Shown: positions 4,001 through 40,308 of the stretch, one piece after another | Numbering within the stretch: the first letter of the stretch is position 1 | Layout: each line of letters opens with the position of its first letter | Origin: Anseranas semipalmata | Lineage: Eukaryota; Chordata; Aves; Anseriformes; Anseranatidae | Assembly: GCA_013399115.1 (NCBI GenBank) | Contig: VXAA01007203.1 | Location: 207,562 to 271,561, forward strand | DNA: 64,000 nt | Reading direction: 5' to 3' | The notes under the pieces: generated by a model | Databases searched by the model: none | Told to the model about the DNA's origin: nothing | Seen by the model: only the letters and a program-made list of their open reading frames with translations | Program-made: the position numbers and the translations under genes

Positions 4001-4922
4001 TAGAATCATAGAATGGCATAGGTTGAAAAGGACCTTAAAGATCATCTAGTTTCAACCCCCCTGCTCTGGGCAGGGTTGCCAACTACTAGAGCAGGCTGCC
4101 CAGCGCCACATCCAGCCTGGCCTTGAATGCCTCCAGGGATGGGGCATCCACAACCTCTCTGGGCAACCTGTTCCAGTGCCTCACCACCCTCTGAGTGAAA
4201 AAATTCCTCCTAATATCCAACCTAAATCTCCCCTGTCTTAGTTTGTAACCATTTCCCCTTGTCCTATCACTATCAGCGTGTGTGAACAGGCGTTCCCCCT
4301 CCTGTTTATATGCTCCCTTCAGGTACTGGAAGGCCGCAATGAGGTCTCCCCGGAGCCTTCTCTTCTCCAAGCTAAACAAGCCCAGTTCCCTCAACCTTTC
4401 TTCATAGGAGAGGTGTTCCAGCCCTCTGATCATCTTAGTGGCCCTCCTCTGGACCCGTTCCAAGAGCTCCACATCCTTCTTGTGCTGGGGGCCCCAGGCC
4501 TGCACGCAGTATTCCAGGTGGGGTCTCACCAGAGCAGAGTAGAGGGGGACAATCACCTCCCTCTCCCTGCTGGCCACCCCTCTTTTAATGCAGCCCAGGA
4601 CATAGTTGGCCTTCCGAGCCGCAAGCGCGCACTGCCGGCTCATGTCCAGCTTCTCATCCAGCAGGACCCCCAAGTCCATCTCCGCAGGGCTGCTCTCGAG
4701 TTCTTCTTCTCCCAGTCTGTATAAGTACCTGGGATTGCCCCAGCCCAAGTGCATCACCTTGCACTTGGCCTTGTTGAACCTCATTAGGTTCTCTTGGGCC
4801 CACTTCTCCAGCCTGTCCAGGTCCCTCTGGATGGCATCCCTTCCCTCTATGGTATCAACTGCACCGCTCAGCTTGGTGTCGTCCGCAAACTTGAGGGCCT
4901 TGAAGGCCCGCAAACTTGAAGG
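4001..4922 (-). mobile_element. CR1 LINE, 5'-truncated, reverse-transcriptase C-terminal part open
   Basis: The 3' end is at 4001 (CATAGAATCATAGAATGG inverted). On the minus strand 4086-4913 is open for 275 codons. It begins just before [10 protein letters not shown], which holds the reverse-transcriptase FADD catalytic motif, then runs through [34 protein letters not shown] and [11 protein letters not shown] to the natural stop. The copy is young in appearance but lacks the endonuclease and most of the polymerase, so it is inactive. Confidence 0.95.
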
Positions 4923-7481: not shown

Positions 7482-7514
<33 letters not shown>

Positions 7515-7612
7515 TATACATACACACACATATATATACATATACATATATATGTGTGTATATTTATATATATATGTACTTACATATATATGTATATATA
7601 TATATGTACTTT
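7482..7612. repeat. AT/TG microsatellite
   Basis: About 130 bases of alternating TA, CA and TG units, likely variable in length and able to form cruciform or Z-type structures. Confidence 0.95.
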
Positions 7613-8316: not shown

Positions 8317-8431
8317 TGGAAAAGGGAAAAAGGGAAAAAAGGAAAAGGGGAAAAAAGGAAAAAAGGAAAAGGGGAAAAAAGGAAAAGGGGAAAAAAGGAA
8401 AAAGGGGAAAAAAGGAAAAAAGGAAAAGGAA
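8317..8431. repeat. GGAAAA-type purine tract
   Basis: About 115 bases of only A and G on the plus strand, in imperfect GGAAAAAA and GGGGAAAAAA units; a polypurine mirror-like tract. Confidence 0.95.
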
Positions 8432-19300: not shown

Positions 19301-22300
19301 CTGGAGAAAGGAGGACAAGATAAAGTGTAGTTAAAAAAAAAAAAAAAAAAGGGAAGGAAGAGAACAAGCTGAAGCCAGGACAATAAATCACTTTTCAGAT
19401 CATCATCTTCTGCCTAAACAAACCAATTAGGCATTTAGAAAAACAGAAACACCACACAGATCTCCTGTAGCTTGCAGATCTACCTGTTTGGTCAGACCTT
19501 CAACTACTGAAGACTAGGACAAATGTCACTAAAATTCACAAAGAATTTCTCTGGAATTCAATAATTTCTGCCCATCTATGTCCAAGAGGACACATCTCAC
19601 ATCCCATCTCACATATATCACATCTGATATCTTTGCTCTGTGGAGCACACAGGGCTGCAGTCAGACCAGAAACAGAAGATGCTAAGAAGACTCATTTGGG
19701 GTTTGGAGGAAGCCTTCCTTGGAAGAAGAAAGCCTATCACAGAGAAAGCCCATACAACCATGGAGGAACAGTTTCTTTAGAAGAAAGTTGGACAAGTGGC
19801 TTTGTGGGCAGAAGGGGAGCATAGGGGGCAGCAGCCCATATCCCATGCTGAACAGAAGGTATGAAGTTTTACTAAGTGGGTTGCTTGGAAGGAGAAGGCT
19901 GCAGCACATCTCTCCAGCACCCCTGTGCTCCAGGCATGTCTCACACTTTTGCTGAGCCCCAGCAAGGCACGAAAGTGTCAAACGGCTGAGATTTGACACC
20001 TCCAGCAATGCCCTGGGCAACATGTGCGTGGGCAGGTTTTCCCAGGCTAAAAAAAGCCCAAACAGATCAGTTACAGAAGGGAAGGAGCAGAAAACCACCT
20101 CCTTAGCAGGGACATGGGTTAGTTGTGGGCGCAGGCAGACAGCCAAACCTGCATTTGGGAAAGTAGACATGTTGCCAATGCTGAAAGAGGATGGAAAAAA
20201 AAAAAAGTCACAGCATCCCAACAAGTGGGTTCAAGAGCAGAGAGTTGACAACTTACATTGAGCCTATCAAAGAGGTCATCTCCTGGGTCCTTGTTCTTCA
20301 TGAACAGTTGCAGGTTTTTGAACACCTGGAGAGGAGGAAGGGATGGCCGTGTTCAGAGACAAGGAGCAAATTGCTCCCAGACACCTCCCTCATCTCCATC
20401 TGCCTTCTCATCCCCTCATCCAGATACACTCTGATTTGGACTCGCACAGTACGCATCCTACCATATCACCATACCACCAACCTGCTCAACTTCAAGGACT
20501 TCCACTGAGACCTCAAGCCAACAGTGGTGCCACAGACTGTTCTCCCCATCTCTGCTATCCCTGGCACTCCAGTTTCCCCACAAACAGCATGAATATTCTC
20601 TACCTCATGGGCAAAGCAAAAAGCAATGGGGACACTTTCAAGCCTTAATTCCCACTAGTCAACTGAGGATGCCCCAGCAGAAGGCCGGGCTTCTCTGATA
20701 GTTCATGGGCCAAAACAACCTTGGAAGCCCTACCCCAAAGTTTCTACCCTCTTCTCAAGGCTAGGGTCAGCATGTGCATCTCCTCATCACAGAGCATCCT
20801 TGCCTCTCCTGCACACGCTGTCACAGTGGGTTTGAAACACAGGTTTCAGATGCAGATTTAAGACTGATGACCACCACGTGAACCAAGCCACCCAATTAAC
20901 CTTGCGCCACATCATCACACTGGCCATCATGTCCATCTCTGCCACACTCACCGGCTTCTCCACTGACACTTTGTTGTAGTAGCGGATGGAGTCTTTCCCA
21001 AGGAAGTCAAACTCCACCACGTGCTCCTGCCCGTCCAGCTTGGGGTGCAGCTTGATGTGTTCCACACGTAGGGAGCAGCAGCCAACTGTGTCTGCAGTCT
21101 CCCCTTCCTCCTTCTCATTGCCAGCTCGCAGGGCCAGCTGGAAGGACCCACAGGAGACCACGAGTCAGCCACTGTGACCCACCACAATTATCCCTTTCTA
21201 AGGTTAAAGTGGATATGGACATCAGGAAGAAAAACAAACAAAACAAAAAGAAACCACACCACTTTCTCAGACAGCGTCTCATTGAACAGCTGCTGGGACC
21301 CTGGTGTAAACCAAGCAGTGGCTCGCTGCAGCAGGAGGTTATTTTCTTATTCTATTAAGCTCTAAGATATTTCCCCAGAACAAAGTTATCCAGCTCTCAC
21401 AAGGCACTTGCCATCATCCAGAGAGACACTGGTTAAGTCCAGGGAGGACAGTACAGCTCCTGCACTGCCACACAACTGTGCCCTCGCACAAACATCAGCA
21501 GATATTGGTAGTCATCATCCTCCTTGATCATTGCCAGATTCCTTACATGGAACAACGCCAGCTAGTAATGACCAGCAGGCACCAAAAGAACACAGAGTGG
21601 GGTGGATCAAAAACCATAAACCCTAGCCTCAACAGCAATGAGGGACCTGAGGGCCAGGGTGATGCCACAGGTACCTTATCAATGAAGTAGAGGGCCACTG
21701 CTCTTTGTCGCTTCTTCATCTCCTTGGACTTCCAGTCAGCCTGGTACTGAGCACGGATTTTGTGGACAACATCCTTTAACCTCCGGGCTACCTCGTACTT
21801 CTGCCAGTCCTTTTCTCCCTGGAAAAAGAGGCCAAGGCATTTCCATCCAGTGCCCCATCTTATTTCTACCTCCTCCAGCCAGACCCTGCTTTGGGAAACA
21901 CAAGCTCCAGGATCTAAATACTGCTCAAAACCCTGTGCTTTCTTGAAAAAAATCCATGAAATGGAAAAAAATTAAAGCAGAAACAGTTCAACTGGGGTTT
22001 CTGTGCCCTCTGCTGGCTGTGCTGGACCCAGGCACTAAATCTGAGCTGCTCATAGTCTGGATGCATCTCCCACAAACTTGTGGCCAGCACAAGGCAAGCA
22101 AGGAGCCAACTGGTCCAACACTGCACAGCCATGGCCACTGATGCTCGCACACCACCAGTGCGGACTGGCACGATATACTTGCCTGGCTGTGCCCAACTTT
22201 CATGCAGTTTCCTTATTTGCTTTGAGGACTGGAAATAGCTTTAAATTACCTTTCTCTCCCTGCTGTGTTCACTCCCTCCCTCCCACAGCACTACAGATGG

Positions 22301-25300
22301 TGATCCCACCTCCTCCTGTCTTCCATTTGCTGGCACAAATGGACCAAACTCCATGGGCTCTAGTACCCTGTGGATCCTCTCAGCCCCTGTCCGGCTTTCA
22401 ACAGACTTCCCAGGATGCACGTGAGCAGCACGGCACAGGGACAGCTCTGCCAGCAGCAATCTGTTCCTAGGAATAGGCTCAATGCTTAAAAAACATTTGT
22501 CCTTTTTCCTCCCACCACAACCAAGGGCATCCCAATTAATCTAGTTTACCTCCTTTTTCTTGGAAAAAAGCACACGTTGACATGACATCTCTTTTCCCCA
22601 ACCTTTCCACCCAGCAAAAGGCCAGTGGCAACAGCTCTGCACAAACGGCAGCACCTCACTGACCTTCAGCTTGGAGCTGGGGTTCAGCATGATGTACTTT
22701 AAGGAGTTCTGAACATTTTCAGTCCACGAGGCCAGCCAGGTGACTGTGTTGTCAAAGCGCACCTCCTTCCATTTGTGACCCACAGGTGGTTCGGGGATCT
22801 TGGAGTCCCTGTGGACAGAGCAAGAATACAGCCCTCAGACCAGAGAGGCCACAGAGGAGAAGAAACAGGTCAGCATCTCAACCATTCCTTCACAGCAAGC
22901 AAAGGATGGTCAAGAAGTTGCAGCATTGCTTACAGAAAACATACAGCCTGCCCCAAATTGTTCTACAACACAGTCAGTCCTTACCCTTTGGATGCTGGGG
23001 ACAACAGGAGAACTTGCTGGGCTGGTGGGGAGTGTTTTGAAACAAGGCCACAAGGTCTTCCTGTGGGTGGGTTAAGACCAATCCAACCACCAGAACTTAG
23101 AGCATATACACTCTTAACTGATTGCTACTCTTCCTCCCTCTGGTGAGGATGCTGATGCTTCCAGCCAGCATGAAGGACCCATGAAATGAGGAGTAATAAG
23201 TCTTTTTAAAGAGAAGCATGGCAGAAGCAATACACAGTCCCATCTTCAAAGAGACCATAGGAGCATTGCTATGTTTGCAGTTGATGTCTGGCCAAAGGTG
23301 CTGGCACCAATGAGAGGTGGGAGCTGCTGACCAGCTTCCCTAGCCACTGCGCATCCACAGAGAAACTAAGACCTGGATGCAAAGCAGATGTCTGGAGGTG
23401 ACCAGAAGATTATAGGAGGGCTCCAGTGTACTTAAGCCTCAGGGAGGGCAAAACAGGGATCGTAGTAGACAGCAAAACCCCATGGCAGCTCCACGTAGAG
23501 GAGATGTGCTGCTTACCCCAGTCCCAAAAGCAGCCCCACAAGCTCAGCTCTTCTCTCAGCCACTCACTTGCTGCAGTTGATGATCACATCTTCTGGCATG
23601 ATCCTCTTCTTGAGCATACCCATTTTGGGGTGGTCACCACGGCCACGGAAAAGCCCCGGAGGCTCAGTTTTGAAGTTGCCTATCTTCTCCCGGTGCCCAT
23701 CAAGGATGCAGTACCCATACTCCTCCTGGATCTTATCTGCCTCCTCCTTCAGTTTCTGAAATGAGAACCATGCCACCATCATCCCACAAGACATAGCTGA
23801 AACCCCATGACTTGTGCTTGCCCACCATCCTTTCCCTGGAGAAAGCAAGGCAGGAAAGACAGAGCTCAAAGAGTTGGAGAAAGAGTTGAGCACAGGTCCG
23901 AGTTCGCTCCCAACACACAGATCATTTCCACCCACTTTGCAAACCCTCATGGTGATGCTGTCCCAGCATGAGATGCTGATGAAGCAAAGCTTGGGTTTCA
24001 TTAGCGCCATAGCAAGGTCACCCATCTTCTGGACAGGTCAGGACCTCAAACCATGACCTGAGGATGACTGGTACTTTTCAAAGCCAGGAAACACGCACCA
24101 TCTGCAGAAAAGCTTAATGAAGAGGGGTGTGATGGTCCTGGAGACATGAAGCTGGTCCAAATGCTAAAGAGGTCCCAGGTCAGGGCATAACCCACCAGGA
24201 AAGGAGGCCAGCAGGAGCTAGGACACCTCAAGCTGGTCCCAAAGAATATCAGCCAGACCCAGATGTCATGGGAAACAGTCCTTACCTGCTTCTCCTCTTT
24301 GGAGAGTGCTTTCCGTGCCTCGTTTTTGTCTACGAAGTACTTGTGGATCTCTCTGAAATCACACTTGTCCAGGTGTTTGATTATCTTCTGCTCCTGAGGT
24401 GTCATCTCCTGAGGGAGAGATGACAGAGGCTGGGTAAAGCCAGGTGGCAAAACCAACTCTGCACAGTGCTGCTGGCTATGTGTCACCTCTGGAGAAAAGG
24501 AAATACGGACCCACACACCAGTTCAGAAAAATCAAAGGGAAGTAGCCAGACCAGCTATGCTAGCCACATCCACCCAAGGGGAGATATAAAGCTGCACCAG
24601 CAAGAGGCCAGGCTGCTCTGGACACCTGAGCTGAGAAGCAAAACACAACCAGCTTTGGGTTGGAGCATCCTCGAACCAGAAACAAGCAGTCCCAAAGGTG
24701 AGTGCAAGCAGATGCCAGGGTCTGAAGAAGTGGCACTGAAGGGTGGGGCATGCACTAGGAGGGGTCTTGCTTGTGCATGGGGACTGAGCCATGGTGCTGA
24801 AGGATCATGATGTTAATCCTTCAGAGGAAGGCACACCCTAAACAGCTTGCAAGGCTGTTTGGTAGATCCAGTGCCTACTTTCTTAGATAGCATCACTAAA
24901 ACTCCAAAGAGAGTTCAAGTGCCAACTTGAAGTGCTCAAGGATGCTGTAGACAGCAAGCCCTGGCCCAAACCAACAAGAAGCATGGAAATAAAGAGCTAA
25001 GCCTCCAAAAACATCCCTTTCCTCCCATGCTGCAGCCCCTGGTCTGCCTGGGGATGACAGTTCTAATGCTGGGGGGCTTAATGTAGAGGATGGGCAGCAA
25101 GGAAGCTCCTGCAGGGAAGGTACCTTCCTCCAGTCATTAAAAAAGTTGGTCTGGAAGATCTCCTTGGTTGTGTACTCATGATCAAGCATTTTGGCATAGA
25201 AGGTAGCAATTTCCTCCGTGGCCACGCTCAGCTTCAGGGGTTTGCCTAGGAAGAGAGAAGAACATAGCTTCAGTTATGGGGACAGCCCAACCTTGCAGAC

Positions 25301-28300
25301 CCAGGAGGTCACCTGGTCGGTCCCCAACCCTCAGCATGGTGCCAGAACAGGGACATGGGCTGAGAATGGACATTGGCACCCCCATGCACCAGGCACAGCC
25401 TTGCCTGTGGGTCAATACCCTGGGCACTCAGCACAGCAGGATGCTGCCCCAACCAATTTGCAATCACTTTTCTTTTTTTTTTTCCCCCACGAGAGTCTGA
25501 TTTACATTGAGGTCCCTGAGCCATCGGGCTTTCAGCAGCCCTTGTGCAATGACAAGTCCCAAACTCTTGGCTTAACAAGACAACACAAAGGTTTGTTTTC
25601 CAACCATGATCACTTCCAGGACCATGCTGAACAGCCAGGATCCCACTCATAGAAGTTTCATCTCAAAACATTTCCTCAAAGAAAATACCCATGAAACAGA
25701 TACAGATGCAAGATCCTCTCAGGGTTGTCCAATGGATCTTGGATTATTTCTTGGAGCTGGCAAAGCCACCACCAGCCTCTTCTGAGCACTTTGGCTGGAG
25801 CTATGAAGCCAGGGAACATCCTGGCTCTTCCTGGGGAGCAAACACTTTTAAATAGCTTTTCTAGGCAAGCCACAGGAAAAGCGCCCTTCAGAGCTCCAGG
25901 GATGGTTCAATCCTGCCTACACCAGACGCTTGATTTGGGGGTTTTGACCTCCACCTGAACTGCAGAACATGGTGAGTCACAGCCTCAAAGCAGCCTCACA
26001 GCAACCTACGTGCACCAGCTCCCTTCCTACTCAGGGCTGTTGCCTGGGCACAAACACGCGTTTTCATCCAGGAACAGCAACACCTCTCAGCAACCGAGCC
26101 AACAGCTCCCCAGATCCCAAGCCAAGGCCACCAGCCCGGATGCACGCAACACAGATGGATCTGCAACAGTGCAGAGGCCACAGAGGAGGTCCAAACCCTA
26201 TGCAAACTACATGCAGCTGACAGGACTCCTCCTCACAGAGCCAAAAAAGAAAAGTGTCCGTCAGCCCCATCGATGTCCCAGCAGTGCCCTCTGCTGACAG
26301 TGTTGTCACACACCTCATTTTTCCCAAATTAGCCTTCCCCCCCCCCCATAAAAAANNNNAAAAAAAAAACACAAGGAATAGGAAGCCCCAGTGAGAGACT
26401 GAGGAGGACCATGACTCCATAGGACTGTGGTCCCCTCCCACCTCCAGCATCCCTTGGTTGAGTCGCATGGTCCTTCTTGCCTCTTTCCCCCCGTCCAGAG
26501 GGACAGTTTGGGGCTGGAGACAAGAGTGTGGAGGAAAAGAGCCCAGCAGACACAGTGGGAAACCCAAGGAGGACAGAAGCCTGGATGCATCCCACCAGTC
26601 TCTCAGCCCCTCACTGATGCACTGAGTTGCTGACAGATTAAATTTGGTGGCTTTGGGGACAACACAGGGAGCCATGGCCAGGAGCTCAGAGCAGCCTGGC
26701 CAAATCCTGCAGTGTCCTGGAGGGCAAGTGACATGTCACTTGCTGAGGCCATGGGACAGTGAAACTGAAGCTCTCATCAGAAGCAAAACCACATTTTCCA
26801 AGCATGCAGAGAAACAGTGCATGAGCTGACTTAAAGCTCAAACCCAGAAAGTATATTAAGGAGGAAAAAAATGCTATACATTGACCGGGAGGGGAAAAAA
26901 TATATAAATATATTCACAAAAGGTACACAAGGTCTCCAGGCAATGGCACTGAGATGCATTGCTTCCCCTGGAGAACCTCAGGGCCCAGTCCCACGGATGC
27001 ACACCCCACACCAGTAAAGGCTGTGAGCAGAGGAGCGAGTTGCGGATGAGGCTTGCTCCAACGGGATATTTCAGCCCTTTAATAATTTATGCTGTGCAAT
27101 ATCCCCCCCTTTCATACAAGAGCAGATAACCAGCTCCTCGGCTGTGTGGAGGGCAACTCCAGACACCTCCTCCCATGGGGGACATACCATCGTAATAAAA
27201 CTGCACGTCGTCTGGCAGCGGCTCATAAAGGGGCACGAAGTAGGGTCCTCGGTGCTCCAGCTGCTTCCACTTCACCCCATCGGCCGACTTCTCCTCTTCC
27301 CACCTGGGAGAGAAGCACACAGAGCCATGAGAGCATCTCTGCCTCAGGGTTAGGGACCTTCTCCAGAGCACTGCCACAAAACTCAAGTGAAATTCCATCA
27401 CCTCAGCCACTGCCTCAGTTTCCCCATTCTTTCAAACATGGAAAATAACGATCCAACCAAGGGAAAAGCATCCTGAGTGGGTGGGGACATGCTCAATGGG
27501 ATGTGGAGGGACTCAGGAAGAGAGCAAATGGGATGGAACCATCAGCCAAACCCACAGGGAAAGCTCAGGAAACCCTGAGCCACAAAGGCTGCTCAGTTTT
27601 GTACCAAAGAGGCTGCAAGGGTTAAAATGCACCCCCCCCACCCCATCCTCCCCAGCCCTCACTGCCTCCTTTCATGGGCACAAAAAAAAAAAGGGGGGGG
27701 CTCATGGGCATCCACCATCCTGTACTGCAATCTTAATGCAAATAAGATCTTATTTGCATCATTTTGCGCCTCTCCCCACCCCCCACAAAACAAACAGGAT
27801 TTTAAAGTCACCATAAGCCTCAGCCGCAAAACGAGGATTTAAAGAAAAAAAATCAAAACACCTACCCTGAAGAGCACTTAAAACCATGAACATTTTAAAC
27901 ATGAAATTAAGAAAGATAACCAAGGTCTGTGTGGCAGAGGAAGTCTGCCAGAGGAGCATTTGGGGACAGGCAGGGGATCTGCACCCCATGGCTCAGCACC
28001 AGCAGGAGACACAGGACCCCAGCATCTCCAGGAAAATGGGCATTGCAGGAGAAACAGCAAAGTTTTACCCCCGGGGAAGAAAACCCCGGTGCTTCTCGCT
28101 CAGCGGTGCCCCGGAAGTATTTCAGAGCTGTCTCCTCCCCGCAGGAGGAGATTGCATCAAAAGGTGGACAGATTGCATCAAAAAGTGCATTGCACCAGGA
28201 AAAAAAAAAAAACATAGAAAAAAATATTTAGGAAAATATAAACACATACATTTATATTTTTAAAAATCAACAGGCTACAGAAAACAGCCGAAAAATCTAC

Positions 28301-31300
28301 AAGGGTGATTTGTAGAGCACTGCGAGGTCTCCATCTCTCCTCCCAAACCCATGCAATCCTCCATCCCCGCATCGCCCACACTCACCTGCTGCAGCCCACC
28401 GAGCCTGTGCGGAGGCCAGTGGGGACGAGCCAGGGGCGAGGGACCCCCCGGCCAAGCATCGAGGTGGCGAGACGCCAGTACATGCCACCTGCAGCCCACG
28501 GAGGTGGCGAGGCCAGTGGGTGCCAGGGTCACCCCCCAGCATCCCTCCCCAGCACCCCGCTACCTGCCGGGGCACGGTGGCATTGCCCAAAGCATTGCCA
28601 TGAAAAGCCACCACTGCTGTGTCCAAGGGGTCCACGTTGTGGCACTCCCCCACGTGTCGGGGCAGTGTAGCCTTATGGGAAACGTAGTCCTGCATGTGTT
28701 TCGAGGCAAATGTGCTGCAACTTGAGTTTATGCTTTGTAGCTGCGCTGCTTATAAAGAAACAAACCACTTATCTATTTTCAAAGCACCCTGCGCCCCACA
28801 AAAGCTGTCCCAAAAGTCCAGGATGTGGGTGATACCCATGAGCATCCCTATCTGGGATAACGCCAGCTTCCTGCAGCCCTGGTTGAGGTGTCTGCAACAG
28901 GCTGCAAAGCATCCAGCACCCCTAAATGCTCCTTCCCTGCCCCAGATATTGGGGTGCTCCGGGACAGAGTGACACCATGTGGCTAAAGCCACTGGTCTCC
29001 ATCACCTCAAGAAAATACAGCAAAGGGACAGCATCTATCAGCACCATCCATATGCTCTTTCCTGATGCTCTCCCACTGAAAATCTTGCCTGAATCATCTA
29101 AAAACTGCTGCAAAGGGAAAAAATGCAGCCCCTTTATATCTTCTTTGATTCCCTGATACAGCTCCCACCAATGTGGAAGAGGTTTTATTACAGGGGGGTT
29201 TGTGGATCATCTCCTTCCGCCAGCCATGACCACCTCCCTTGCCTTGTTGGACACCAACGAAGTCAGTTCAGGAGGAATATATATTCTTATAACAGTATAT
29301 ACCATAAAAATATTATACAAATACTATTTTGTATTCAGGACCTCCCATTACCTCTCATTCCCCTTCCTCCTGCCAAGAACACCAAGTTCATGGCTTAGGA
29401 AAATACAGCCAAGCAGTTAATAAAATATTAAAAATAGAATTTTCACAGTTTTACACTAAGAAATAAAACTAAAATCCCAGTTATATTCAAGTTAAACCTG
29501 TCCAGAGAGACCAAACCCATGCAGGACACTTACCATTTCCATTTGTTTTCTGCCTCTTCTTTCTTTTCTTTCTCTTTTTTCTCCTTTTTAGCTTTTTTGT
29601 TGTTGTTCTGCTCTCCTTCTTCCTTAGATTTTCTTTTCTGGGTTTTCACTGGGATCTCATCCTTTTCACCCTTCTCTTTACTTTTCTTCTCCTTCTCTTT
29701 CTTTTTCTCTTTTGGCTTTTTCTCCTTAGTTTTCTGCTTTTTCCCTTTCCCTGGCACATCTCCCTTGCCCACATCGTCTTCCTCCTTCACCTCCAGCCCG
29801 ACCTCCATGCTCTCAGTCTGTCCCCATCCCTCATCCCCTTGCTCATCCACCTCCTCCTCCTTTATTCTTTTTCCATCTTCGCTTTCCTTTCCCACCACAT
29901 CTCTCCCCTCCATCCCTCCTGGTCCATCTCCCACTCCTAATTCCTCATTTGTCCTTTCCAGCTCTTGCTCCTCTTCCATCATTTTTTTCTTCTTTATTTT
30001 CTTCCTCCCCATCTTCTCCTCCCCCTCTGTTTTCACCTTCTTGCGTTTCTCCGCTTTTCCCTTCTCCTGCTTTTCCTTCTCATCATCCCTTCCCTGGGCA
30101 GAGCTTCTGCACCCTCGCTTGGCTCTGCCCTGTCCCACTCCCCAGTTCCTGTCCCCATCAGCACCATCCTCCTCCTTCATGCCCTCCATCACATCCCCGA
30201 GGTCTTCCTCAAACTCATCCTTCTTGCTACCTCCTTTTCTCAGCAACCCCTTCTCCCTCTCCTTCCTTTGCCCTTGCTTCTTTTTTTCTTTTTCCCTTTT
30301 TTGGTGTTGGGTACCCCCTTCCTGCTTTAGGACAGGGGGTTCCAGTTCCTTCTCCACCCCCTCCCTCACAGCAGTGACCCCCAGAGCCAACCCCAAACCC
30401 CCAGACTCTCCAGAGAGGGATGCAGCCATGCCAGCAATGTCATCACTTGGCCTCAGGACCTGTAGGAAGCAATAAGAACGGAAAAAACATTGATATTGGG
30501 AAAGGAGAGCAATTATCCTAAAGTCCAGGCACACAGAGGAGGTGCTAAGGGATGCATCCCATTCAAGATTGGGTCTTGGAGGCTAATGATACCCCCTAGA
30601 TTTCCTACCCCAACTCTGTCCTCAGTCTCCGAGAGCTGCCATCCCACAGCAGGTCCCTCTCTCCGTGATTTATGCCGTGACCTGTAACAAATGTAAAGCC
30701 ACTTCTAACCACAGAATGGCTGAGGTTGGAAGGCACCTCTGGAGGTCACCTCCTGCTGAAGCAGAGCCACCCACAGCAGGTTGCACAGGACCATGGGGGA
30801 CAAGAGGCTGGAGAACAGCCCCATGAAAAGGGATCTGGGGGTTCTGGTTGATGGCAAGTTGAAGATAAGTCAACAGTGCGTCCTGGCAGCCCGGAGGGCC
30901 AACTGTACCCTAGGGTGCATCAGGCACAGCACTGCCAGCCGGCTGAGGGAAGGGATTGTCCCGCTCTGCTCTGGTACAGCCTCACCTCAAGCATGGTGTG
31001 CAGTTTGGGGCACCACAGTATAAGAAGGACATAAAACTATCAGAGAGTGTCCAAAGGAGGGCTACTAAGATGGTGAAGGGCCTAGAGAGCAAGACACATG
31101 AGGAGTGGCTGAAGGAACTGGAGCTAAAACTGTTTAGTCTGGAGAAAAGGAGGCTGAGGGGAAACTTCATCGCTTTAACTACCTGAAAGAAGGTTGCAGT
31201 GAGGAGGTTGTCGGTCTCTTTTCTCAGGTGACAAGTGATAGAACACAAGGTAACAGCCANATTTGGACAAAGTTCTCAGACATAGGGTCTGATTTCTGGG

Positions 31301-34300
31301 TGGTCCTGTGTGGGGTCAGGAGTTGGACTTGATGGTCCTTGTGGGTCCCTTCCAACTCAAGATATTTTGTGATGCTATGTCCAGGTGGCTTTTGAAGATC
31401 CCCAAGGAGGACACTCCACAACTACTCCGAGTACCTGGGCCAGGGCTCCGGCACCCGCCCGGCACAGAAGCGCTGCCTGGGGGCCAGGGGGAGCCTCCCG
31501 GGCTCCAGGCTGGGCCCGGGGCCTCCGCTGCTGGCCCCGGGCACCACTGCGCAGAGCCCGGCTCCGGCCTCTCGCCCCTCCCTGCAGGTAGGGGGGGGCG
31601 TGGGGGAGCTCCCCCGGAGCCCCCTCCTCTCCAGGCCCAGCAGCCCCAGCTCCCGCAGCCTCTCCTCCCAGCACAGGGGTTCCAGGCCCTCCCACACCAC
31701 GGGGCCCTGCGCTGGGCTCTCTCCAGGTCACGCTGGTACTGGTGGTCCCAGAACACTGGCAAGCAGCAACCTCCGCATCTTACATGCAAAAACAGGGGAT
31801 TGCTCCTAATGAGCCCATGCTTCCCTTCAAGCACAGCAGCACCCAAGGCTGCAGCTGACAAAGATATCCCAAAGCAGCAGAGAGCAGCCCCTTTAGAAGT
31901 GTGGTGGCCCCAGGCTGCAGATTATGGCATGATGAAGCTCATAAGCAGGACCACAAAGTCTCCAGATCAAATGTGGGAGGCCCCAAGGAAATGTCCCCAG
32001 GGACACCCCTGCTCAGAGAATGGGACAGGCTTGCAGGGTTTGGTGGCTAAAAGTAGGACATTGAGGTGGCACTAGGCTGAGCATTATGGACATAGAAGAG
32101 GCTGTCTTTGGATGAGACATGTCTCCTGGGACCGTGTGGACTTGGGGACAGGCACCCTTACTCCCCTCCCATGGAGGGGGCCTGAGAATCAGCATGATGG
32201 GGAAGGATGCAGCCCCTTATCACAACAAGCTGCAGGACCAGGAATATCCAGATTCACGGCCTCCACTGGCAGCAACAGGAATGGGGAAAGCAGGAATGTT
32301 CCCCCAGTCAGCAAAGAGGCTGAGCAAATTTTGGGGAGCTCTGTGGCATGTGCCAACACCGTAAAGCACCAACTTTCCCCTATAAAATCACTTTTACCCA
32401 GGGTTTCTCCAAGCTGGGCAGGGAGTTGGGAACCTCATCTTCCAGTCTGAGTTACAGAAAAGCAAAGCAAAAGATGAACAAGGCAATAGCAACAGCTACC
32501 TAAAATCATACCAGCTGGAGGCTCCATCTCTGCAGGGTCAAGGTGGTGTTGTTCCCTTGCCCACAGGGGAACCTGGGGATGTCTCCACTGGGTCACGGTC
32601 GCCTCCCAACCGAGCAAAGCACCCACCAGTCTGTAGAGCATCACAACCCCAGCTCGCAATCAGCTCAGAGCCAAGCTGGGGCCAGTTTTGAACTACTACC
32701 ACTGTCCCATTGCCATCAGGAATGGAGTGAGGAAGCAAGGTTTCTCCCCCAAAGGAGGGTAGTGATGGCTCTCCCACACATCCAGGTGAGCACAAGCCAC
32801 CAGAGAACAGGGCCACAATTTCTGCATTTAGCCAAAACATCCCACAGAAAAGGCTTCAGTGAAGGAAAGGGAGATTTTTCATCCCTTTCTAAAAGGATGA
32901 TGCTAAATTACTGGGCTGCAGGACTTTAGAACAATGCAGAGCTCCAGAAAACCTTCAGACCTGTTCAGGATGTAATTCCCCAAAAAGCAGCAGCTCAGGC
33001 ACCAGCATTGACAGTCCATTCTGCACCAGCGAGGAACAACCATGCTCATTCAGGGCAAGCCCCATTTGCTGGCATCAACAGTTTACCATCACATTGAGCC
33101 ATCAGATGGGGGTCTTCCCACCCTATTTTCAGACCTCTATGCAGAGTCACCAGTCCCAGCTTTTCACCAGCAGCTCCCCATGGCAATCAAGCCCTGTTGA
33201 ACTCAAACTTCTAAATGGCCCCCCCACATCCCACCAGGCTCCTCCACGGAGGAGGCTCAGCTTTGAGCCAAGTTGGCATATGGCTTTGCGGTAAAATAAA
33301 TCCCTGGGGAAGAGCTCATTTTCCCACAGCCCAAGCCCCAAAGCAGCTCTGGGGAAATAATACCAGGGAGATGGTGGAGACCGGATGTTTTTTGGAGCTA
33401 GCATTGCACAATTTCCACTAAACTTATTAGTGCAAATAGCTTGGCGAAACACACTCCAATCTCATTAGGAGCCAGTAGATTTGTGACTCAGAAGGTAAAG
33501 TCCGGCAGCCTTTTCGAACCGGCTCCTTACCCGAAAGGTCTTATTAGAGGCTTCTCACTGGACATGAAAGACCCTGCCTCTACGAGGTGGAGAGGATTAG
33601 CCTGCTAAAGGCCAGCATAATGAATTCAGGTTCCTATCTCTGCCCAGATCTAGCATAGGGTGAGGGAGAGAAACACCCTTTTCCCAAGCTTTGTGATGCT
33701 GGTTGTCCCCCCTAGCACTTCCCCACCGCCTACCTCCGCATTTATGTAGGTATGCGCGGCCAAGCAATCGCACCCTGCTGACTCGAGCATCCTTCTGCTC
33801 TTGGGGAGGTTGGATCAGGCTAGGAGCCTTCCTCACCCACCCAAAGCCCAGGATAAGGGCTCAAATCCCACTTGTGATTTTTTTTTTTTTTTTGCAAGCT
33901 TCCAGGGTCACCAGAGGCAGCAGTACATGGCCAAGCCCCATAAAGGCATCAGCAGTGGGGTGGTCTCAGTAATAAATGAGGGGCTGCACAGCCCCACAGC
34001 AAGAAGAAGAGAAAGTATGGATTTCCAGTTCTCTAGGCAAAAAAACATGAAGAAAATGGCTTGACTTACCTGGAGGAGTCCTCCAGCCCTGTTGATGACT
34101 CTTGGTGAAGGGTGGATGCAGCTTCCTTCTGAAAGAGATTCATGGCATTGGTGCAGGAGGGGTTAAAAAGGCAGAGCTGGCACAGGTACCCCAACAGCAG
34201 CATCACCCCCGAGCAATTACCCAGACAGGCCACAGTCCCTGCATCCCATCAGCATCACCCTCCCCTTCCTCAGCAGCCTCTGCTAGAAACCAGGAGGCCA

Positions 34301-36387
34301 GAACAGTGGGCCTGTATTAGCCTGACTCCCCCAAGCATGAAGGAAGCTTTGAGGTTTTACGGGGTTCGGAAATCCATATCTTATTTCACCAGCACTAAAA
34401 AGGTATTTTGTAGAGCAAAGCCACAAAGACTATCACCCCTTTCAACCATCTGTTCATCAGGTGTGCTGCTGCTATCAGGGACACTGGGCCAGGATGCCAG
34501 AAGGATGGGAGGGCTCCAAAAAGATGCTTCTAATCACAGCTTATGTGCATCGAGGCAAGTTTATTCCTTAGAATATTAAATGGCTATGGTAGCAGATGGC
34601 AAGAGGGAAAGAGGCAGGTGGCAAAGCCATCCATGGGAAATACAACAAGGAACAGCAGGGAAGGAAGAGAAGGAAAAAGCAAAAAAGTAGGGAAAATGAG
34701 GACAGGATCTGGAAGAAAATGAGATGGGACTCAAACAGAGGCCCCAAAAGCTGCCAACCAACATGCAAGGCTACATCCAACCACACAGTGCCCTGAAACC
34801 CATCCCAGCTTCTCCTGGCTCTTGCCGAGCATTGAGGCTCTCGTTAACAAATTCTGACTCCCCAAGTTTCTCTTTCCAAGGCTTTCAAGGGAGGCCAAAA
34901 CCACACAGGGATTTTTCTTGAAAGCTGCTCATGAGAAGCAGCTGGGTTAACTCATTAAGTGGAAAAAACTGAGTTAATTATAGGTTGGCTATGGCAATAT
35001 GCGCTTTCGTTCCCTGGGAATACTCCGGCTCTCAGATTCACAATCCTTCAGCTGCTGTCAGCAATCAGGATGGTACATTCAGGAGCCACGCTCTTCCAAA
35101 GAAATCCTGCATGCAAATGCCATCAGGAACAGTAGCACTACCAGGACACCAACCACGATGCCCTCCGGGGGTTTCAAGGCTGCAGTTCAGCTCCGATTGC
35201 ATCAGGAGAGATCGCTGACATTTCCAACACCATTTACAAGAAGTATGGACAGACATGGAAGGGAAAGAGCAAATGCCAAGCATCTCTGAAGCAGCAAAGT
35301 GCTCTGCAAGGGCTCTGCAATGGGGAAATCCTCCCTAGATTCATCTCCAGTCCTGCCCATCAATACAAGACACTGCAACTTCCCTTGAGGTCTTCATGGA
35401 GATGGGCTCCATCTGCCCTTGGCCAAGTGAAATATACGAACGTGGATAATACAAGATTTACAGGGACTTGCCCAGGATACATACTTCCCAGCATCATCCC
35501 AAGAACAGCAGTGAAGACCAAATACCTCAGAAAGGGATGCTGTCAGGATGGGACCAATCCCAACCTCATGCTTGAGCGACTCCATCATTTCCCATATCCT
35601 GGTGCTTCTCATCAGGGCCAGCTCACGCCCTCGGTCCAACACCAAATATGTTGGATTCAACCCCAATGCCACCCACATCCCCTAGCAGGGCACACAAGCT
35701 TCAGTTAGTTTGCTCTTTAATTTAATTCAAGATGCTCAAAGGATCCTTTTTATGGGCTCACACCAAGCTGTAGAACACCATCCTCACAACTCCCTTGAGA
35801 GCAAACCACAAGTGCTCCTGAATCCCTCAGCACAGAGACCACCACATACCAACCCTGATGCAGCTGCCTCCTTCGCTTGGATCCCATCCCACTGGCTTGA
35901 GCTGAGACCTTTACCTTCCACCACAGCCTCGTGCTTTAGAGAGCTTCTTGGCCAAAAAGGAGAGAAAAGGCATGTTTTTCCAATCAATAAAAACTCTTTT
36001 GATAATAACCCCAAGATGGGGTGGGCAAAGTCCCACAGCTCCCATCTCCTCCCCACAGACACCTCCAACCCTTCCATCCAGCCAAGGAGTTACCTACTGA
36101 TGATGTTCTCCTGCAGTGGTTTCTCCTTGACTTTTGGAGAATTCTTCTTCCGTTTCAGCACAGGAGGCTGCGTGCCAGAAGTAGGGAAGAGAAGGGACTT
36201 TGTGCAATGGGTTTGATGCCCACAAAACACCAAGGCAGGTGCAAGGGTCATCTCCAGTGCCCAAACAGGGAGAGGGCTGGCTGGTACCTGCACCGTGCAT
36301 GGAGTTTCCTCCGGCTCCTTCTTCACAGCCTTTCCCTGGGGTGCCTTCAGCGCCTCCTGCCCCTCTTCTGTCTCACTCTTTCGCTTC
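16222..36387 (-). CDS. TOP1MT: TOP1MT, DNA topoisomerase IB (mitochondrial type), whole gene
   Basis: Type IB topoisomerase: it nicks one DNA strand through a 3'-phosphotyrosine, allows controlled rotation, and religates, relieving supercoils in mitochondrial DNA. Thirteen core exons of 116, 122, 123, 188, 145, 144, 186, 69, 115, 128, 95, 150 and 103 bases join in frame with GT-AG introns, matching the exon pattern shared by vertebrate TOP1 and TOP1MT. Catalytic Arg, Lys, Arg, His and Tyr are all present (about residues 316, 360, 418, 460 and 551 of the short form). Wording such as [19 protein letters not shown] and the DEDFEF end fits TOP1MT better than nuclear TOP1, and the head-to-head RHPN1 neighbour supports this. 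Two alternative N-termini are proposed: a presequence exon (28386-28483, 593 residues in all) and a lysine-rich upstream chain (29534-36387). The core is certain; use of the two N-termini is inferred. Confidence 0.95.
16731..16880 (-). CDS. TOP1MT: TOP1MT core exon 12 (active-site Tyr)
   Basis: 150 bases, GCCCTCAG acceptor and GCCTG|GTAAGC donor. The second linker helix ([19 protein letters not shown]) is followed by [16 protein letters not shown], whose Tyr (residue 551 of the 593-residue form, aligned to Tyr559 of human TOP1MT) forms the covalent bond with DNA. ISIAW is the TOP1MT wording. Confidence 0.97.
17790..17884 (-). CDS. TOP1MT: TOP1MT core exon 11 (linker)
   Basis: 95 bases, TTCACAG acceptor and GAGGC|GTGAGT donor. 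Encodes [20 protein letters not shown], the first helix of the antiparallel coiled-coil linker that slows rotation of the broken strand. Confidence 0.95.
18585..18712 (-). CDS. TOP1MT: TOP1MT core exon 10 (catalytic His)
   Basis: 128 bases, GTTTCCAG acceptor and CTAAG|GTGAGA donor. Encodes [17 protein letters not shown] with the catalytic His (His632 of human TOP1) and ends SMQNLQTK, where the linker begins. Confidence 0.96.
19186..19300 (-). CDS. TOP1MT: TOP1MT core exon 9 (catalytic Arg)
   Basis: 115 bases, TTTCTCCAG acceptor and AACC|GTGAGT donor. Encodes [20 protein letters not shown] followed by [13 protein letters not shown]; the Arg of FRTYNAS is the second catalytic Arg (Arg590 of human TOP1). 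Confidence 0.96.
20257..20325 (-). CDS. TOP1MT: TOP1MT core exon 8
   Basis: 69 bases (23 codons), phase 0, CTCCAG acceptor and CAAT|GTAAGT donor. Encodes [19 protein letters not shown] and DRLN. Confidence 0.95.
20952..21137 (-). CDS. TOP1MT: TOP1MT core exon 7 (catalytic Arg and Lys)
   Basis: 186 bases (62 codons), TCCTTCCAG acceptor and GCCG|GTGAGT donor. [19 protein letters not shown] carries the first catalytic Arg (Arg488 of human TOP1) and [16 protein letters not shown] the catalytic Lys (Lys532), which acts as general acid on the leaving 5' oxygen. Confidence 0.96.
21675..21818 (-). CDS. TOP1MT: TOP1MT core exon 6
   Basis: 144 bases (48 codons), phase 0, TTTTTCCAG acceptor and GATAAG|GTACC donor. 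Encodes [18 protein letters not shown] and ends [12 protein letters not shown], leading into catalytic subdomain III. Confidence 0.95.
22664..22808 (-). CDS. TOP1MT: TOP1MT core exon 5
   Basis: 145 bases, GTCCACAG acceptor and CTGAAG|GTCAGT donor. Encodes [20 protein letters not shown], then [28 protein letters not shown] and VQNS are diagnostic of TOP1MT against nuclear TOP1. Confidence 0.95.
23568..23755 (-). CDS. TOP1MT: TOP1MT core exon 4
   Basis: 188 bases, ATTTCAG acceptor and CAGCAA|GTGAGT donor. Contains [17 protein letters not shown] and [20 protein letters not shown], the conserved lip region of the type IB clamp, ending in INCSK. CILDGH is the TOP1MT form of a site that reads CIMDNH in nuclear TOP1. 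Confidence 0.95.
24286..24408 (-). CDS. TOP1MT: TOP1MT core exon 3
   Basis: 123 bases (41 codons), phase 0 at both ends, CCCTCAG acceptor and GCAG|GTAAGG donor. Encodes [18 protein letters not shown] and ends with KALSKEEKQ, part of the long helices at the edge of the core. Confidence 0.95.
25124..25245 (-). CDS. TOP1MT: TOP1MT core exon 2
   Basis: 122 bases, TTCCTAG acceptor and AAG|GTACC donor. Encodes [20 protein letters not shown], then [20 protein letters not shown], a highly conserved stretch of the DNA-clamping core. Confidence 0.95.
26356..26359. other. Small assembly gap (4 N)
   Basis: Four Ns in an A-run after a C-run in the TOP1MT intron between core exons 1 and 2. Single Ns also stand at 31260 and 37200. 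Confidence 0.99.
27188..27303 (-). CDS. TOP1MT: TOP1MT core exon 1
   Basis: 116 bases, TCTCCCAG acceptor and GATG|GTATGT donor. It opens the core with [20 protein letters not shown] and ends in the split Gly of FYYDG. This is the start of core subdomain II, whose first residues clamp DNA. Both alternative N-termini (KWKW or Arg from the presequence exon) are completed by its first G. Confidence 0.95.
28386..28483 (-). CDS. TOP1MT: TOP1MT alternative first exon encoding a mitochondrial presequence
   Basis: 98 coding bases from ATG (28481-28483, purine at -3, in-frame TGA upstream) to a perfect GCAG|GTGAGT donor. It encodes [18 protein letters not shown] and 14 further residues, then a split Arg codon (AG|G) completed by core exon 1, giving R-WEEEK. 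The 33 residues contain five Arg, several Ser/Thr and no Asp or Glu, the composition of a mitochondrial targeting sequence. Human TOP1MT joins its presequence to the core at the same Arg-Trp junction and phase. With the core this gives 593 residues, close to the human 601. A ZNF143-like promoter motif lies about 190 bases upstream. Confidence 0.8.
28671..28690 (-). promoter_or_regulatory. ZNF143/STAF-like promoter motif upstream of the presequence exon
   Basis: The minus strand reads GGACTACGTTTCCCATAAGG, a close match to the ACTAC...TCCCA element bound by ZNF143, which usually sits near transcription starts of housekeeping and mitochondrial genes. It is about 190 bases upstream of the presequence ATG in the same orientation, inside an otherwise unremarkable intron, so it suggests an internal promoter for the mitochondrial isoform. 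Confidence 0.5.
29534..30459 (-). CDS. TOP1MT: TOP1MT lysine/glutamate-rich exon, nuclear TOP1-like N-terminal domain
   Basis: A single 926-base exon, open for 308 codons, with a strong acceptor (TTCCTACAG) and donor (AAATG|GTAAGT). The first 45 residues are mixed ([20 protein letters not shown]); the rest is dominated by Lys, Glu and Arg, with runs such as [17 protein letters not shown]. It ends in ENKWKW, where the last Trp codon is completed by the next exon to give KWKW-WEEE, the same junction as in nuclear TOP1. In nuclear TOP1 the charged N-terminal domain carries localisation signals and partner contacts and is dispensable for catalysis. Human TOP1MT lacks it. On the plus strand the exon appears as a CT-rich tract. 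An internal ATG at 30427-30429 could start a shorter form. Confidence 0.8.
30711..30795 (-). mobile_element. CR1 LINE host copy, 3' part (split by insertion)
   Basis: CACAGAATGGCTGAGGTTGG begins an inverted CR1 tail that stops at CAGGACCATG. The sequence that should follow (TCCAGG..CTTTTGAAGATC, as at 60232 onward) resumes at 31380, so this is one half of an interrupted element. Confidence 0.85.
30796..31379 (+). mobile_element. CR1 LINE inserted into another CR1
   Basis: A plus-strand 5'-truncated CR1 from GACAAGAGGCTGGAGAACAG through [19 protein letters not shown] and SLEKRRLRG to TTCCAACTCAAGATATTTTG and TGATGCTATG. It contains an internal deletion and a single N (31260). It sits exactly between the two halves of a minus-strand CR1. 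Confidence 0.85.
31380..31735 (-). mobile_element. CR1 LINE host copy, 5' part (split), GC-rich subfamily
   Basis: Resumes the element broken at 30795, reading inward from TCCAGGTGGCTTTTGAAGAT. On the minus strand it gives GAGAGGCTGCGGGAGCTGGG and other very GC-rich CR1 coding sequence nearly identical to the copy at 55075-55510. Confidence 0.85.
34070..34128 (-). CDS. TOP1MT: TOP1MT long-form upstream exon L3
   Basis: 59-base exon with a CTCTTTCAG acceptor and perfect CCAG|GTAAGT donor. It must receive one base from L2 to be read as [19 protein letters not shown] and join the large exon in phase 0 ([10 protein letters not shown]). The splice sites are strong but the peptide has no recognisable motif, so the evidence is phase and splice quality only. 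Confidence 0.5.
36098..36167 (-). CDS. TOP1MT: TOP1MT long-form upstream exon L2
   Basis: 70-base exon behind a long polypyrimidine tract and GCACGCAG acceptor. It continues L1 in phase 0 and reads [17 protein letters not shown], a basic segment resembling a nuclear localisation signal. Two overlapping donors exist. GTAGGT (end 36098) keeps the frame into exon L3 and the large lysine-rich exon; GTAACT five bases later shifts the frame to a stop early in the large exon. The end given assumes the frame-preserving donor. Confidence 0.55.
36288..36387 (-). CDS. TOP1MT: TOP1MT long-form upstream exon L1
   Basis: 100-base exon with a CCCCAG acceptor and CAG|GTACC donor. It enters with two bases of a codon supplied upstream and leaves in phase 0. 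It reads [16 protein letters not shown] and then [11 protein letters not shown], with a KRK nuclear-localisation-like cluster and an acidic KKEPEE stretch like those in the N-terminal domain of nuclear TOP1. The exon supplying its first two bases is not firmly located; a candidate is at 37478-37494 and others may be in the assembly gap. Confidence 0.6.
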
Positions 36388-39300
36388 CTGGGGACAACAG
36401 CAAATTCATCCCACTGAGGCCAAGCAGGCAAAACCTCTCCAAACCCCTTGGTGGTAAAAATGGCATAAAGCTACACTGCATAATCTTTATGCCCAGCAGC
36501 ATTAACAAAAAATCTCTTCCAAAAGGAAATTTGAAGGGGCTTCCCAGCTGATTATTTTAGGGATGCGCTGCCCAACAGAGCCATGTGCAGCAACATAAAG
36601 CCAGGGGTCCCCAAATCCCCTACAATGGTGCCCACCGGTTGCTGCTGTCCTTTGCTCTGCCGGCTCTCGAGACCCCCATGGCTTTGTCACCCACCGGCTC
36701 TTCAGGATGGGACATGGGGATAAGGCAGCGTTCCTGAGGGTGGGCACTGCAACGAGATGGAGATGGGTGGTAGCACCCTGATTTTGCTCTTGGGGGAAAC
36801 CCCACTGGGTGCTCACTCCACAGCTCAGCCCTGAGGTTTGTAGCAACACACAGGATCAAGCTCATCTTCTGCAAGGACCCAAATGGAGCATCGACTGGCA
36901 AAGCGCTGAGCTCAGCACCTTCGATGCTGTTAGAGCGGTAAAAATAAAGCTGTCCTAAAATAAAAGGGAATCCCCAAAACAACATCAAAATTCACAGCTC
37001 CATATAGATAGATGAGGGTTGCGTGCTGGGGCAAGGGCGGGATTTGCACCCTCAGAGCAGCCCAAGGGATGCAACACACGTTACCCAAGGCCCCAAGTAC
37101 ACCCAGAAAATGAACTGAAATATGAAAATGAAATAATGAAAAAATAGTAAAACACAACAAATAAGCAAGAGCAAAATTGAGAATTTGACCTCCCCCCCCN
37201 AGCCAGACCCCCTCAAAAATCCCATCTCCCCCCTGGAAACTCAAACTCTGAGAAGTTGCAAGAAATAAAGCTCAGATTTAAACAACACTAAGGTAGTCCT
37301 CATCCATTAAGGTCCTTCCCCATCAAGATGAGAAGGGATTTTCCAAGGATTGAAGAACAAGCTGCAAAGCACCACAAGACACCCTACAAACTTTTCAAGG
37401 AATGAGAAACACATTGAAAACTTCCCTATTTTACCAGCCCTTGCAGAGCTTGCAGCTGCTGGTGGGACCACGCTCACCCAGCACAGAGTGACATGCTCAA
37501 AGCCACCCAAGCTGGAGAAGACCTCACCCTCTACCCAACTGCCTCGCTAAGGGAAATGTCCTCCTACAGGCAGCTTACTTAAAGACTCCCTTGATCCTGA
37601 TTGGAGGCTCCTAGCACAAGGTGCACCCTGGGAAATGAAGTTTTAGTCCCAAATCTGAGTTTAAGGAGAGCACTGGCCAGCATACTCTTGGTAAGGGGAC
37701 CTGCTGGGGGGGCAAAAACCCTTTGCGTTGCCCAGGTGTGTTGCTTCAAAAACAATGCTGTGCAAACATCTCCCTTCCAGGAGATACCACCCCTGCAATC
37801 AGATTATTAAATTAATTCCAAAATCTAGCCTTTCTCACCTTCTTCTTACCCATCAGAGCCCCATAGCTGGATTTGGAGGAGTCTTTAAGCCCAGACACAG
37901 AAGCTGGATCCTGCAAGATGCTGTTGCCCATAGCTTTCACCCTGCAGCACTCACCCATCCCACCCCTCTCCTGCCCTATTCATGCAGGTGAGGCTATTGC
38001 TTTCACCTGCCTGCATTCCCATCAAGCATCTCCCTACAGCTGAGCCTCAGAAGGGTCTCCCCATCTTCAACGAGCTGCTCTGCAGCAGCACATGGGGCTG
38101 ATGCAAAGGGGCTGCAGCTGCTGCAAAGCTCTTCCACCACGAGGGCTTTGCATAGCGAGAAGAAATGTGACCTTTTCCCCAAAGTTTGGTTTTTAAGGAA
38201 TTTTTTAGGCATCACCCCGCATTTGGGCAAGTAGCGGGGACGCGTGTTCCCTTGGGAAGGTGCCGGAGCGGAAACCCCCCAAGGCAGGGCTGGCTCTGGG
38301 AGAACCTCTTTGATCCCCATTGCGCCACATGGGGAAGAGGCACCCAAGCCACCTTTCTTGCTGGATGAGTAAAAGTCGTCAAGGGGTGGGAGCCAGCCCC
38401 GGGGCAGGGAGCAGGAGACAGCGGCGTGCCAGGGCTTGTTTGCTCTTGGAAGCCTTCTGCCAAGCCAGGGACCAGCGTATATTCAGTTTTCTTGTTTTTT
38501 TACTGTTGGTCCTATATGGATTTATTCAGCCTTGATACTGGTGAGGGTTTCTCCTGAGGTGTCCATGCTGTCCGTGATGGGAAAGGGTGGGGTCTGCAGC
38601 TGGGAAAAACCTATCCAAACCCAGATTTGCTTCAGTTTGCATATACATCCCATCCAAACACAGCCTGGATTAAAAACCATAATAATAAAGGTGGGTTTTA
38701 TATATTTTCCCTTTGCAGATACTAAATCTCTTTGCAGTGTGGCAGATGGGAGCAGGATGGCTCCATCTGAGGCTCTGCAACAGAGAAAGCCAGACCACAA
38801 AGAGGGTCCCTGCACGGTTTGGTGATGCCACGGTGCTGTCACCGTGTTGGTGACAATGTCCCCATAAGGTGCCAGCCCCAGCCAGGCTGGCAGCAGCTCC
38901 CTCGTCAGCAGAAAGCGAAGCAGAGCAGCGCGTCCTCCCCGGAGAAGATCGCGGAGGAGATGGCGCACTGGGGCAGGGAATGCCTCTTCCCACACGTTCC
39001 CCGCCAGCGGCTTGTGCACCAGGATTAAAGCACTTGACTCTGCAGACCGCTGCGATATTCAGCCAGAAAGGCATTGCTGCCGCTCCGGATTAAATGGCAT
39101 TTTCGTCTTTCTGGTCCAGCAGCTCTTTTTTGGATTGGGAAATCCAGGAGGGAGAGAAAATCCTCCATAACCCATTGCCTTCCCCAGGCCAGCATGAAAC
39201 CCTTGAAGCCCCAACAAGGGAAAATCATCTGGGAAAGCTGGAAAGGGTTTAGTTTATTTGGGCTGTTAGGAAATAAGCTCATGCAGCATCAATGGTATAA

Positions 39301-40003: not shown

Positions 40004-40308
40004 NNNNNNNNNNNNNNNNNNNNNNNNNNNNNNNNNNNNNNNNNNNNNNNNNNNNNNNNNNNNNNNNNNNNNNNNNNNNNNNNNNNNNNNNNNNNNNNNN
40101 NNNNNNNNNNNNNNNNNNNNNNNNNNNNNNNNNNNNNNNNNNNNNNNNNNNNNNNNNNNNNNNNNNNNNNNNNNNNNNNNNNNNNNNNNNNNNNNNNNNN
40201 NNNNNNNNNNNNNNNNNNNNNNNNNNNNNNNNNNNNNNNNNNNNNNNNNNNNNNNNNNNNNNNNNNNNNNNNNNNNNNNNNNNNNNNNNNNNNNNNNNNN
40301 NNNNNNNN
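40004..40308. other. Assembly gap (305 N)
   Basis: Unresolved sequence in the GC-rich region between the two 5' ends. It removes the RHPN1 start codon and may hide the first TOP1MT exon. Confidence 0.99.

Follow-up and report, generated by a model that had tools for sequence, protein, structure and literature searches.

A TOP1MT gene of Anseranas semipalmata with two in-frame leaders, predicted to address one topoisomerase core to mitochondria and to the nucleus

The shared core and its two leaders

The window (the whole stretch of 64,000 nucleotides that was analysed) contains a complete TOP1MT gene on its minus strand, in which a core of 13 exons is common to two forms with different leaders (Table 1). 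All 13 core exons are preceded by an AG acceptor and the 12 internal core donors all carry GT, scoring in the 90th-100th percentile among all GT sites of the window. The core has every catalytic residue that PMC10081982 names (ALRAGNEK, FLGKDS, AKVFRT, LCNHQR, KLNYLD) and is 76% identical to human TOP1. The nearest relatives of the gene are goose, duck and turkey proteins, and in a tree of 23 rows (20 picked homologues, the two genes of this bird and human TOP1) the core clusters with the TOP1MT proteins of goose and turkey at 100/100. Three topoisomerase I domains of Pfam are recognized in the joined long-form protein. Runs of N lie at 26356-26359, 31260, 37200 and 40004-40308, and touch no TOP1MT exon.

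Table 1. Exons of the TOP1MT gene, with positions counted in the window
Feature	Position	Strand	Remarks
TOP1MT gene, complete	core exons 27303 to 16222	-	13 core exons, common to both forms
U1, long form	36636..36679	-	start codon of the long form; encodes MGVSRAGRAKDSSN(R); GCCATGG context; donor gtgggc; ends in phase 2
U2, long form	36288..36387	-	AG/GT; phase 2 to 0
U3, long form	36094..36167	-	holds the conserved stretch KVKEKPLQENIIS; AG/GT; phase 0 to 2
U4, long form	35850..35943	-	tandem acceptor AAGAAG; phase 2 to 0
U5, long form	34070..34128	-	donor CAGgtaagt
U6, long form	30609..30681	-	AG/GT; phase 2 to 0
U7, long form	29534..30459	-	Lys/Glu-rich; ends KWKW(TG|G); AG acceptor; gtaagt donor; homologous in birds
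Short-form first exon	28386..28483	-	33-residue, Arg-rich, acid-free leader; predicted mitochondrial targeting sequence
Core exon 1	27188..27303	-	reads W-EEEKSADGVKW...; used in both forms
Core exon 2	25124..25245	-	
Core exon 3	24286..24408	-	
Core exon 4	23568..23755	-	
Core exon 5	22664..22808	-	
Core exon 6	21675..21818	-	opens with GEKDW; its Gly is the equivalent of human Gly437
Core exon 7	20952..21137	-	catalytic Arg and Lys (ALRAGNEK, FLGKDS)
Core exon 8	20257..20325	-	
Core exon 9	19186..19300	-	AKVFRTYNAS, catalytic Arg
Core exon 10	18585..18712	-	catalytic His (LCNHQR)
Core exon 11	17790..17884	-	linker
Core exon 12	16731..16880	-	active-site Tyr (KLNYLD); Tyr551 in the short form, Tyr975 in the long form
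Core exon 13 and stop codon	16222..16324	-	

As described in the first-pass annotation, core exon 1 begins at 27303 with a G placed behind an AG acceptor, and two bases of an upstream exon are required to complete the codon. The exon 28483-28386 supplies them with its AG|gtgagt end, which gives Arg-Trp at the junction after an Arg-rich leader without acidic residues (MYWRLATSMLGRGVPRPWLVPTGLRTGSVGCSR; five basic residues, all of them Arg, and 0 Asp/Glu). From this composition, a mitochondrial signal is predicted in the short leader. The short form measures 593 residues in the gene model drawn from the sequence, with Tyr at 551, as had been claimed, and bird short forms in the database have similar MYRxL... 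leaders. Around this exon (28051-28500), CpG observed/expected reaches 0.61-0.62, which corresponds to the 99th percentile of 400-base stretches of the window; near U1 the maximum is 0.39, the 88th percentile of such stretches.

The same two bases are also available from U7 (30459-29534), whose 308 open codons plus TG read ...ENKWKW|W into core exon 1, again as first proposed. The presence of an in-frame Lys-rich exon thus stands, while a start of the long form within that exon does not: U7 is internal, with six coding exons upstream (36679 to 30609). U1-U6 were located by tblastn of the goose long form P0001; the database leaders of goose, duck and turkey extend past U7. Because the six upstream coding exons are found in relatives as well as in this genome, a start at 30429 was rejected. 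Some database bird models nevertheless begin within U7 (P0006, P0009, P0011).

The exon-end phases of U1-U7 are 2,0,2,0,2,0,2, all internal splice sites are AG/GT and the donors rank at the 88th-100th percentile when every GT site of the window is counted. A Trp-Lys-Trp sequence followed by a donor (TGG-AAR-TGGTRAG) occurs a single time on the two strands of the window, at the end of U7. The long form is an intact frame of 1017 residues with a Lys/Glu-rich leader of 457 residues, a single stop at its end and the active-site Tyr at 975. Its leader contains 111 basic and 100 acidic residues, 14 overlapping K-K/R-x-K/R and 6 bipartite-like matches to NLS-like patterns, and, by pattern match, 7 of the ten psi-K-x-E sites of the long form. 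A PDB search with the Lys-rich exon gave just three weak matches, all of them ribosomal protein S9; a plasmid search, uninformative for a bird gene, gave no match.

At U4, the tandem acceptor (35943, minus strand) has a counterpart in alligator proteins showing both products, ISSS in P0043 and ISRSS in P0078, and the use of one or the other type differs between species in turtles and monotremes.

The ordinary TOP1 of this bird is a separate gene on contig C2093 of the assembly, where its exons could be matched to residues 18-765 of the human protein but not to the first 17. Its last leader exon starts in phase 0 and ends in QKWKW|W, phase 2; the join to core exon 1 falls at the same base. The likeness to nuclear TOP1 noticed in the first reading holds at the junction: the long TOP1MT leader joins the core precisely where the bird's own TOP1 does, at KWKW|W and in phase 2. 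The two genes have in common a Lys/Glu-rich leader, this phase-2 intron and then the same core. The leader ends align; beyond them the TOP1MT leader shows no clear alignment with that of TOP1 (a longer tblastn match came without low-complexity filtering), and TOP1 has several short exons where TOP1MT has one exon of 926 bases. Moreover, the QEN / ISSS residues of the TOP1MT leader are absent from the leaders of human TOP1 and Gambusia TOP1. By eye, U3/U4 resemble one of the TOP1 leader exons, at a similar phase, but the likeness is too weak to be claimed.

When the whole assembly (1.10 Gb, 4080 contigs) was searched with PF02919, all 10 matches fell at the TOP1MT and TOP1 loci. Therefore, if the long TOP1MT were nuclear, this bird would have a second type IB enzyme in the nucleus. 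For human TOP1, the available text of PMC9094055 describes residues 191-206 as important for DNA binding, a contact of Trp205 with Gly437 that permits rotation, and NLSs in the leader. Trp205 corresponds to the second Trp of the KWKW pair. Residues 191-215 are said to promote camptothecin sensitivity, and an archaeal enzyme fused to these human residues gained no camptothecin response (PMC8748870, in the part available). The glycine equivalent to human Gly437 is conserved and opens core exon 6, and a Trp-Gly contact may be expected in the long form. In the AlphaFold model of the long-type protein P0011, docking of the Trp is not seen because the pLDDT of KWKW is below 50.

Distribution of the long form

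The homologue search scored 7980 candidates. Among the 120 homologues listed of 2041 hits, 69 have W-K/R-W-W before the core, including one nematode protein (P0038), and 55 of these 69, the nematode again included, have at least 150 residues ahead of the core. Apart from the nematode, the 69 come, judging by their names, from birds, turtles, crocodilians, lizards, frogs, salamanders, monotremes, marsupials and a few placentals, and two are unnamed. The placental long-type proteins include those of donkey (P0091) and colugo (P0115); that of the anteater (P0129) was obtained when the Lys-rich end and the junction were used as query. Most long-type entries are database isoforms named 'mitochondrial' and, by their names, mostly automated gene models. 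The junction is present in 36/36 hand-picked long forms (35 from the 120 listed and this bird), and W-x-W-W is invariant in 33/33 picked rows, invertebrate TOP1 included. Two proteins of cypriniform (carp-like) fish, P0124 and P0140, have Lys-rich leaders and fall on the TOP1MT side of the tree, with a support of 96/91 when one of them is included and a modest 86/85 with both.

The long form had been presented as an avian feature, set against mammals in which TOP1MT has only the short form. Long forms are found in the database for reptiles, amphibians, monotremes, marsupials and some placentals, and the restriction to birds cannot be maintained. A bird-only origin is ruled out by the long forms of other vertebrates among the homologues listed. 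The statement on mammals has to be narrowed to the species studied, for which it is at most true, because the database long forms include those of monotremes, marsupials and placentals. It is likely, from these comparisons, that the long leader is ancestral rather than avian.

A third type of leader is seen in alligator, where the upstream exons of P0078 and P0079 skip the Lys-rich exon and join a different exon, which ends in SWSRGR ahead of the core.

Both forms exist as database proteins in at least four species, namely the tinkerbird Pogoniulus (P0008/P0052), Xenopus laevis (P0080/P0106), wallaby (P0066/P0071) and platypus (P0061/P0070). The long-type junction is also carried by two proteins from contigs tagged 'lgn', which we take to mean assembled sequencing reads. 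P0081 has 636 residues on a contig of 2151 bases and its core is nearest to lizards; P0097 has 1399 residues on a contig of 7582 bases and its core is nearest to the newt Lissotriton. These contigs are too short for the introns of this gene and thus resemble spliced mRNAs, though they may be intronless retrocopies.

Dual addressing and alternative readings

Both leaders are present at this locus with their splice sites, matching phase and intact frames. It can be proposed that both are made, probably from alternative first-exon sets of a single gene with 13 core exons, and that the products are mitochondrial and nuclear; we hold this reading, in which the two addresses are predicted, to be the likely one. 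Transcription starting near 36.7 kb would give the long form, and a start near 28.5 kb, within the intron that follows U7, would give the short form. Exchange of the leader would change the address, a mitochondrial leader being replaced by a basic leader of nuclear type, and would at the same time add or remove the Trp pair KWKW, present in the long form and missing from the short one. In many vertebrates, the TOP1MT gene would probably serve the nucleus as well as mitochondria.

Two first-exon sets with matching phase ahead of common catalytic exons make an arrangement like that of UNG. According to the available text of PMC6651865, transcription of UNG from an upstream start yields the nuclear form (UNG2), initiation in intron 1 yields the mitochondrial form (UNG1), and both use the same catalytic exons; the corresponding TOP1MT starts are putative. 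The rise in CpG at the short exon fits with two promoters as in UNG. However, the UNG leaders have 44 and 35 residues (PMC6651865, same part) as against 457 and 33 for TOP1MT and, unlike UNG, TOP1MT has a nuclear paralogue, TOP1. In the available parts of PMC9638942 and PMC12718117, TOP3A is likewise one topoisomerase gene for nucleus and mitochondria, but its isoforms are set apart by the start codon and not by first exons. One gene with nuclear and mitochondrial first exons is a known kind, to which TOP1MT would add a new, unexpected case.

Alternatively, the long leader could be a fading relic, open by chance or by recent inheritance and rarely spliced, and only the mitochondrial form would matter in birds. 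Several observations are in line with such decay. No bird long-form transcript was seen among the homologues listed, in which the bird 'lgn' rows P0025 and P0049 are short forms, and a bird 'lgn' row is likewise missing from the complete list of 67 matches to the Lys-rich end plus junction. Outside birds the identity of U7 is 20-38%; this low identity is compatible with a disordered tail, as well as with weak constraint. WKWW has become WRWW in two placental rows, and the models of quail (P0020) and hummingbird (P0054) break at the U7 end. It should, however, be noted that U7 continues to KWKWW in all 15 picked bird rows, this bird included. Stops in closely related birds, which had been named as evidence that would count against a long form, are not seen in the 14/14 other picked bird long forms, mostly automated models, in which protein covers 86-99% of the U7 length. 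A second conserved mark is KPLQEN...ISSSLK (KEKPLQENIISSSLK), which spans the U3/U4 junction (36094-36167 and 35850-35943, minus strand) and is strong in sauropsids, KPLQEN being kept in 11/11 birds and 7/7 reptiles that have the region. Related forms of the mark occur in two monotremes, three marsupials and 4/5 frogs; it is barely recognizable in two placentals and absent from two salamander rows. A search with residues 1-200 of the long form alone gave nine proteins, all from birds.

Simulations also bear on this point. When 20,000 sequences of the same composition were drawn from a first-order Markov model, none was free of stops over the length of U7, and the other two minus-strand frames of U7 contain 13 and 18 stops. 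Under simulated neutral decay with substitutions only, the leader stayed stop-free with P of 0.16 at 3% divergence, 0.05 at 5% and 0.004 at 10% (0.4% of runs), and in 0/2000 runs at 15%. The leader of this bird is 80-81% identical to that of goose and 65-67% to that of turkey, with a core at 96% for both. A chance open frame is ruled out by the Markov and neutral-decay runs together. With KPLQEN, the bird KWKWW ends and the decay at 10% divergence arguing against it, we regard a relic as unlikely.

A long form acting as a mitochondrial or cytosolic variant, with a Lys-rich leader that binds DNA or proteins and has no nuclear action, seems to us still less probable. The first 33 residues of the long leader are net basic (8 basic, 5 acidic), as such a variant might have; five acidic residues there are nonetheless unlike the acid-free short leader, and the NLS-like matches and the TOP1-like KWKWW end also argue against it. 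The Lys-rich exon is separated from core exon 1 by 2.2 kb, in which the short first exon lies, and could on that ground be assigned to a neighbouring gene or to an annotation fusion; we find this hardly credible given the phase-matched KWKW|W junction as in TOP1, the same joined protein in many vertebrates and the presence of the junction on the contigs of P0081 and P0097.

Within the reading of one gene with two addressed products, it is the long form that is likely to be older, because TOP1MT proteins of fish, amphibians, reptiles and mammals also have a long leader. It would have been kept from the TOP1/TOP1MT duplication, and the mitochondrial exon would be an addition rather than a replacement. 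This raises the possibility, to which we give about even chances, that in most vertebrates TOP1MT is not confined to mitochondria but has served as a second type IB enzyme of the nucleus ever since the early vertebrate duplication, having kept a basic leader and Trp pair of its own and gained an internal mitochondrial first exon, and that the mitochondria-only view comes from the mammals studied.

In the available text of PMC10081982, human TOP1MT is a short mitochondrial protein of 601 residues and the word 'isoform' has 0 occurrences. Human TOP1MT is found in mitochondria (PMC9638942), vertebrate TOP1MT is called restricted to mitochondria (PMC12143597), and TOP1MT is treated as a duplicate with a changed address in PMC2790464 ('neolocalization') and PMC12718117, in the parts of these sources that were available. 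The gene described here agrees with the vertebrate TOP1MT of the available part of PMC10081982 in its 13-exon core, the five catalytic residues, the Arg-rich acid-free first exon and a Tyr near the C terminus; it differs in that the 457-residue alternative leader is also encoded, where a short mitochondrial protein is described there. The long models named 'DNA topoisomerase I, mitochondrial isoform X1/X2' in databases are the same protein, predicted in many species and named mitochondrial. No description of a long or nuclear TOP1MT was found in the literature searched (titles and abstracts shown; subscription papers mostly outside it). The long protein is already present in databases as predicted isoforms, while its meaning appears to be unreported in that literature.

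Should the long form prove to be made and to be nuclear, there would be two type IB enzymes in the nucleus of birds, reptiles and amphibians. In that case, camptothecin targets, and TOP1 redundancy in work on DT40 or Xenopus, would have to be reread, and the TOP1 duplicate would have become dual-addressed rather than moving.

Other features of the window

An Rfam search of the window gave 0 matches. A BRO1 domain exon at 60252-60758 on the plus strand (E 4e-13) is transcribed away from TOP1MT and is probably part of an RHPN1-like gene; RHPN1 adjoins TOP1MT in the human genome. A CR1-like reverse transcriptase fragment lies at 4089-4937 on the minus strand, with an RVT_1 score of 19.9 bits, under the curated cut-off. 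Two simple arrays are also present, an AT array at 7482-7605 and a tandem array of AAAAAGGA at 8320-8427 (13.4 copies), which is Lys-rich in the plus frames.
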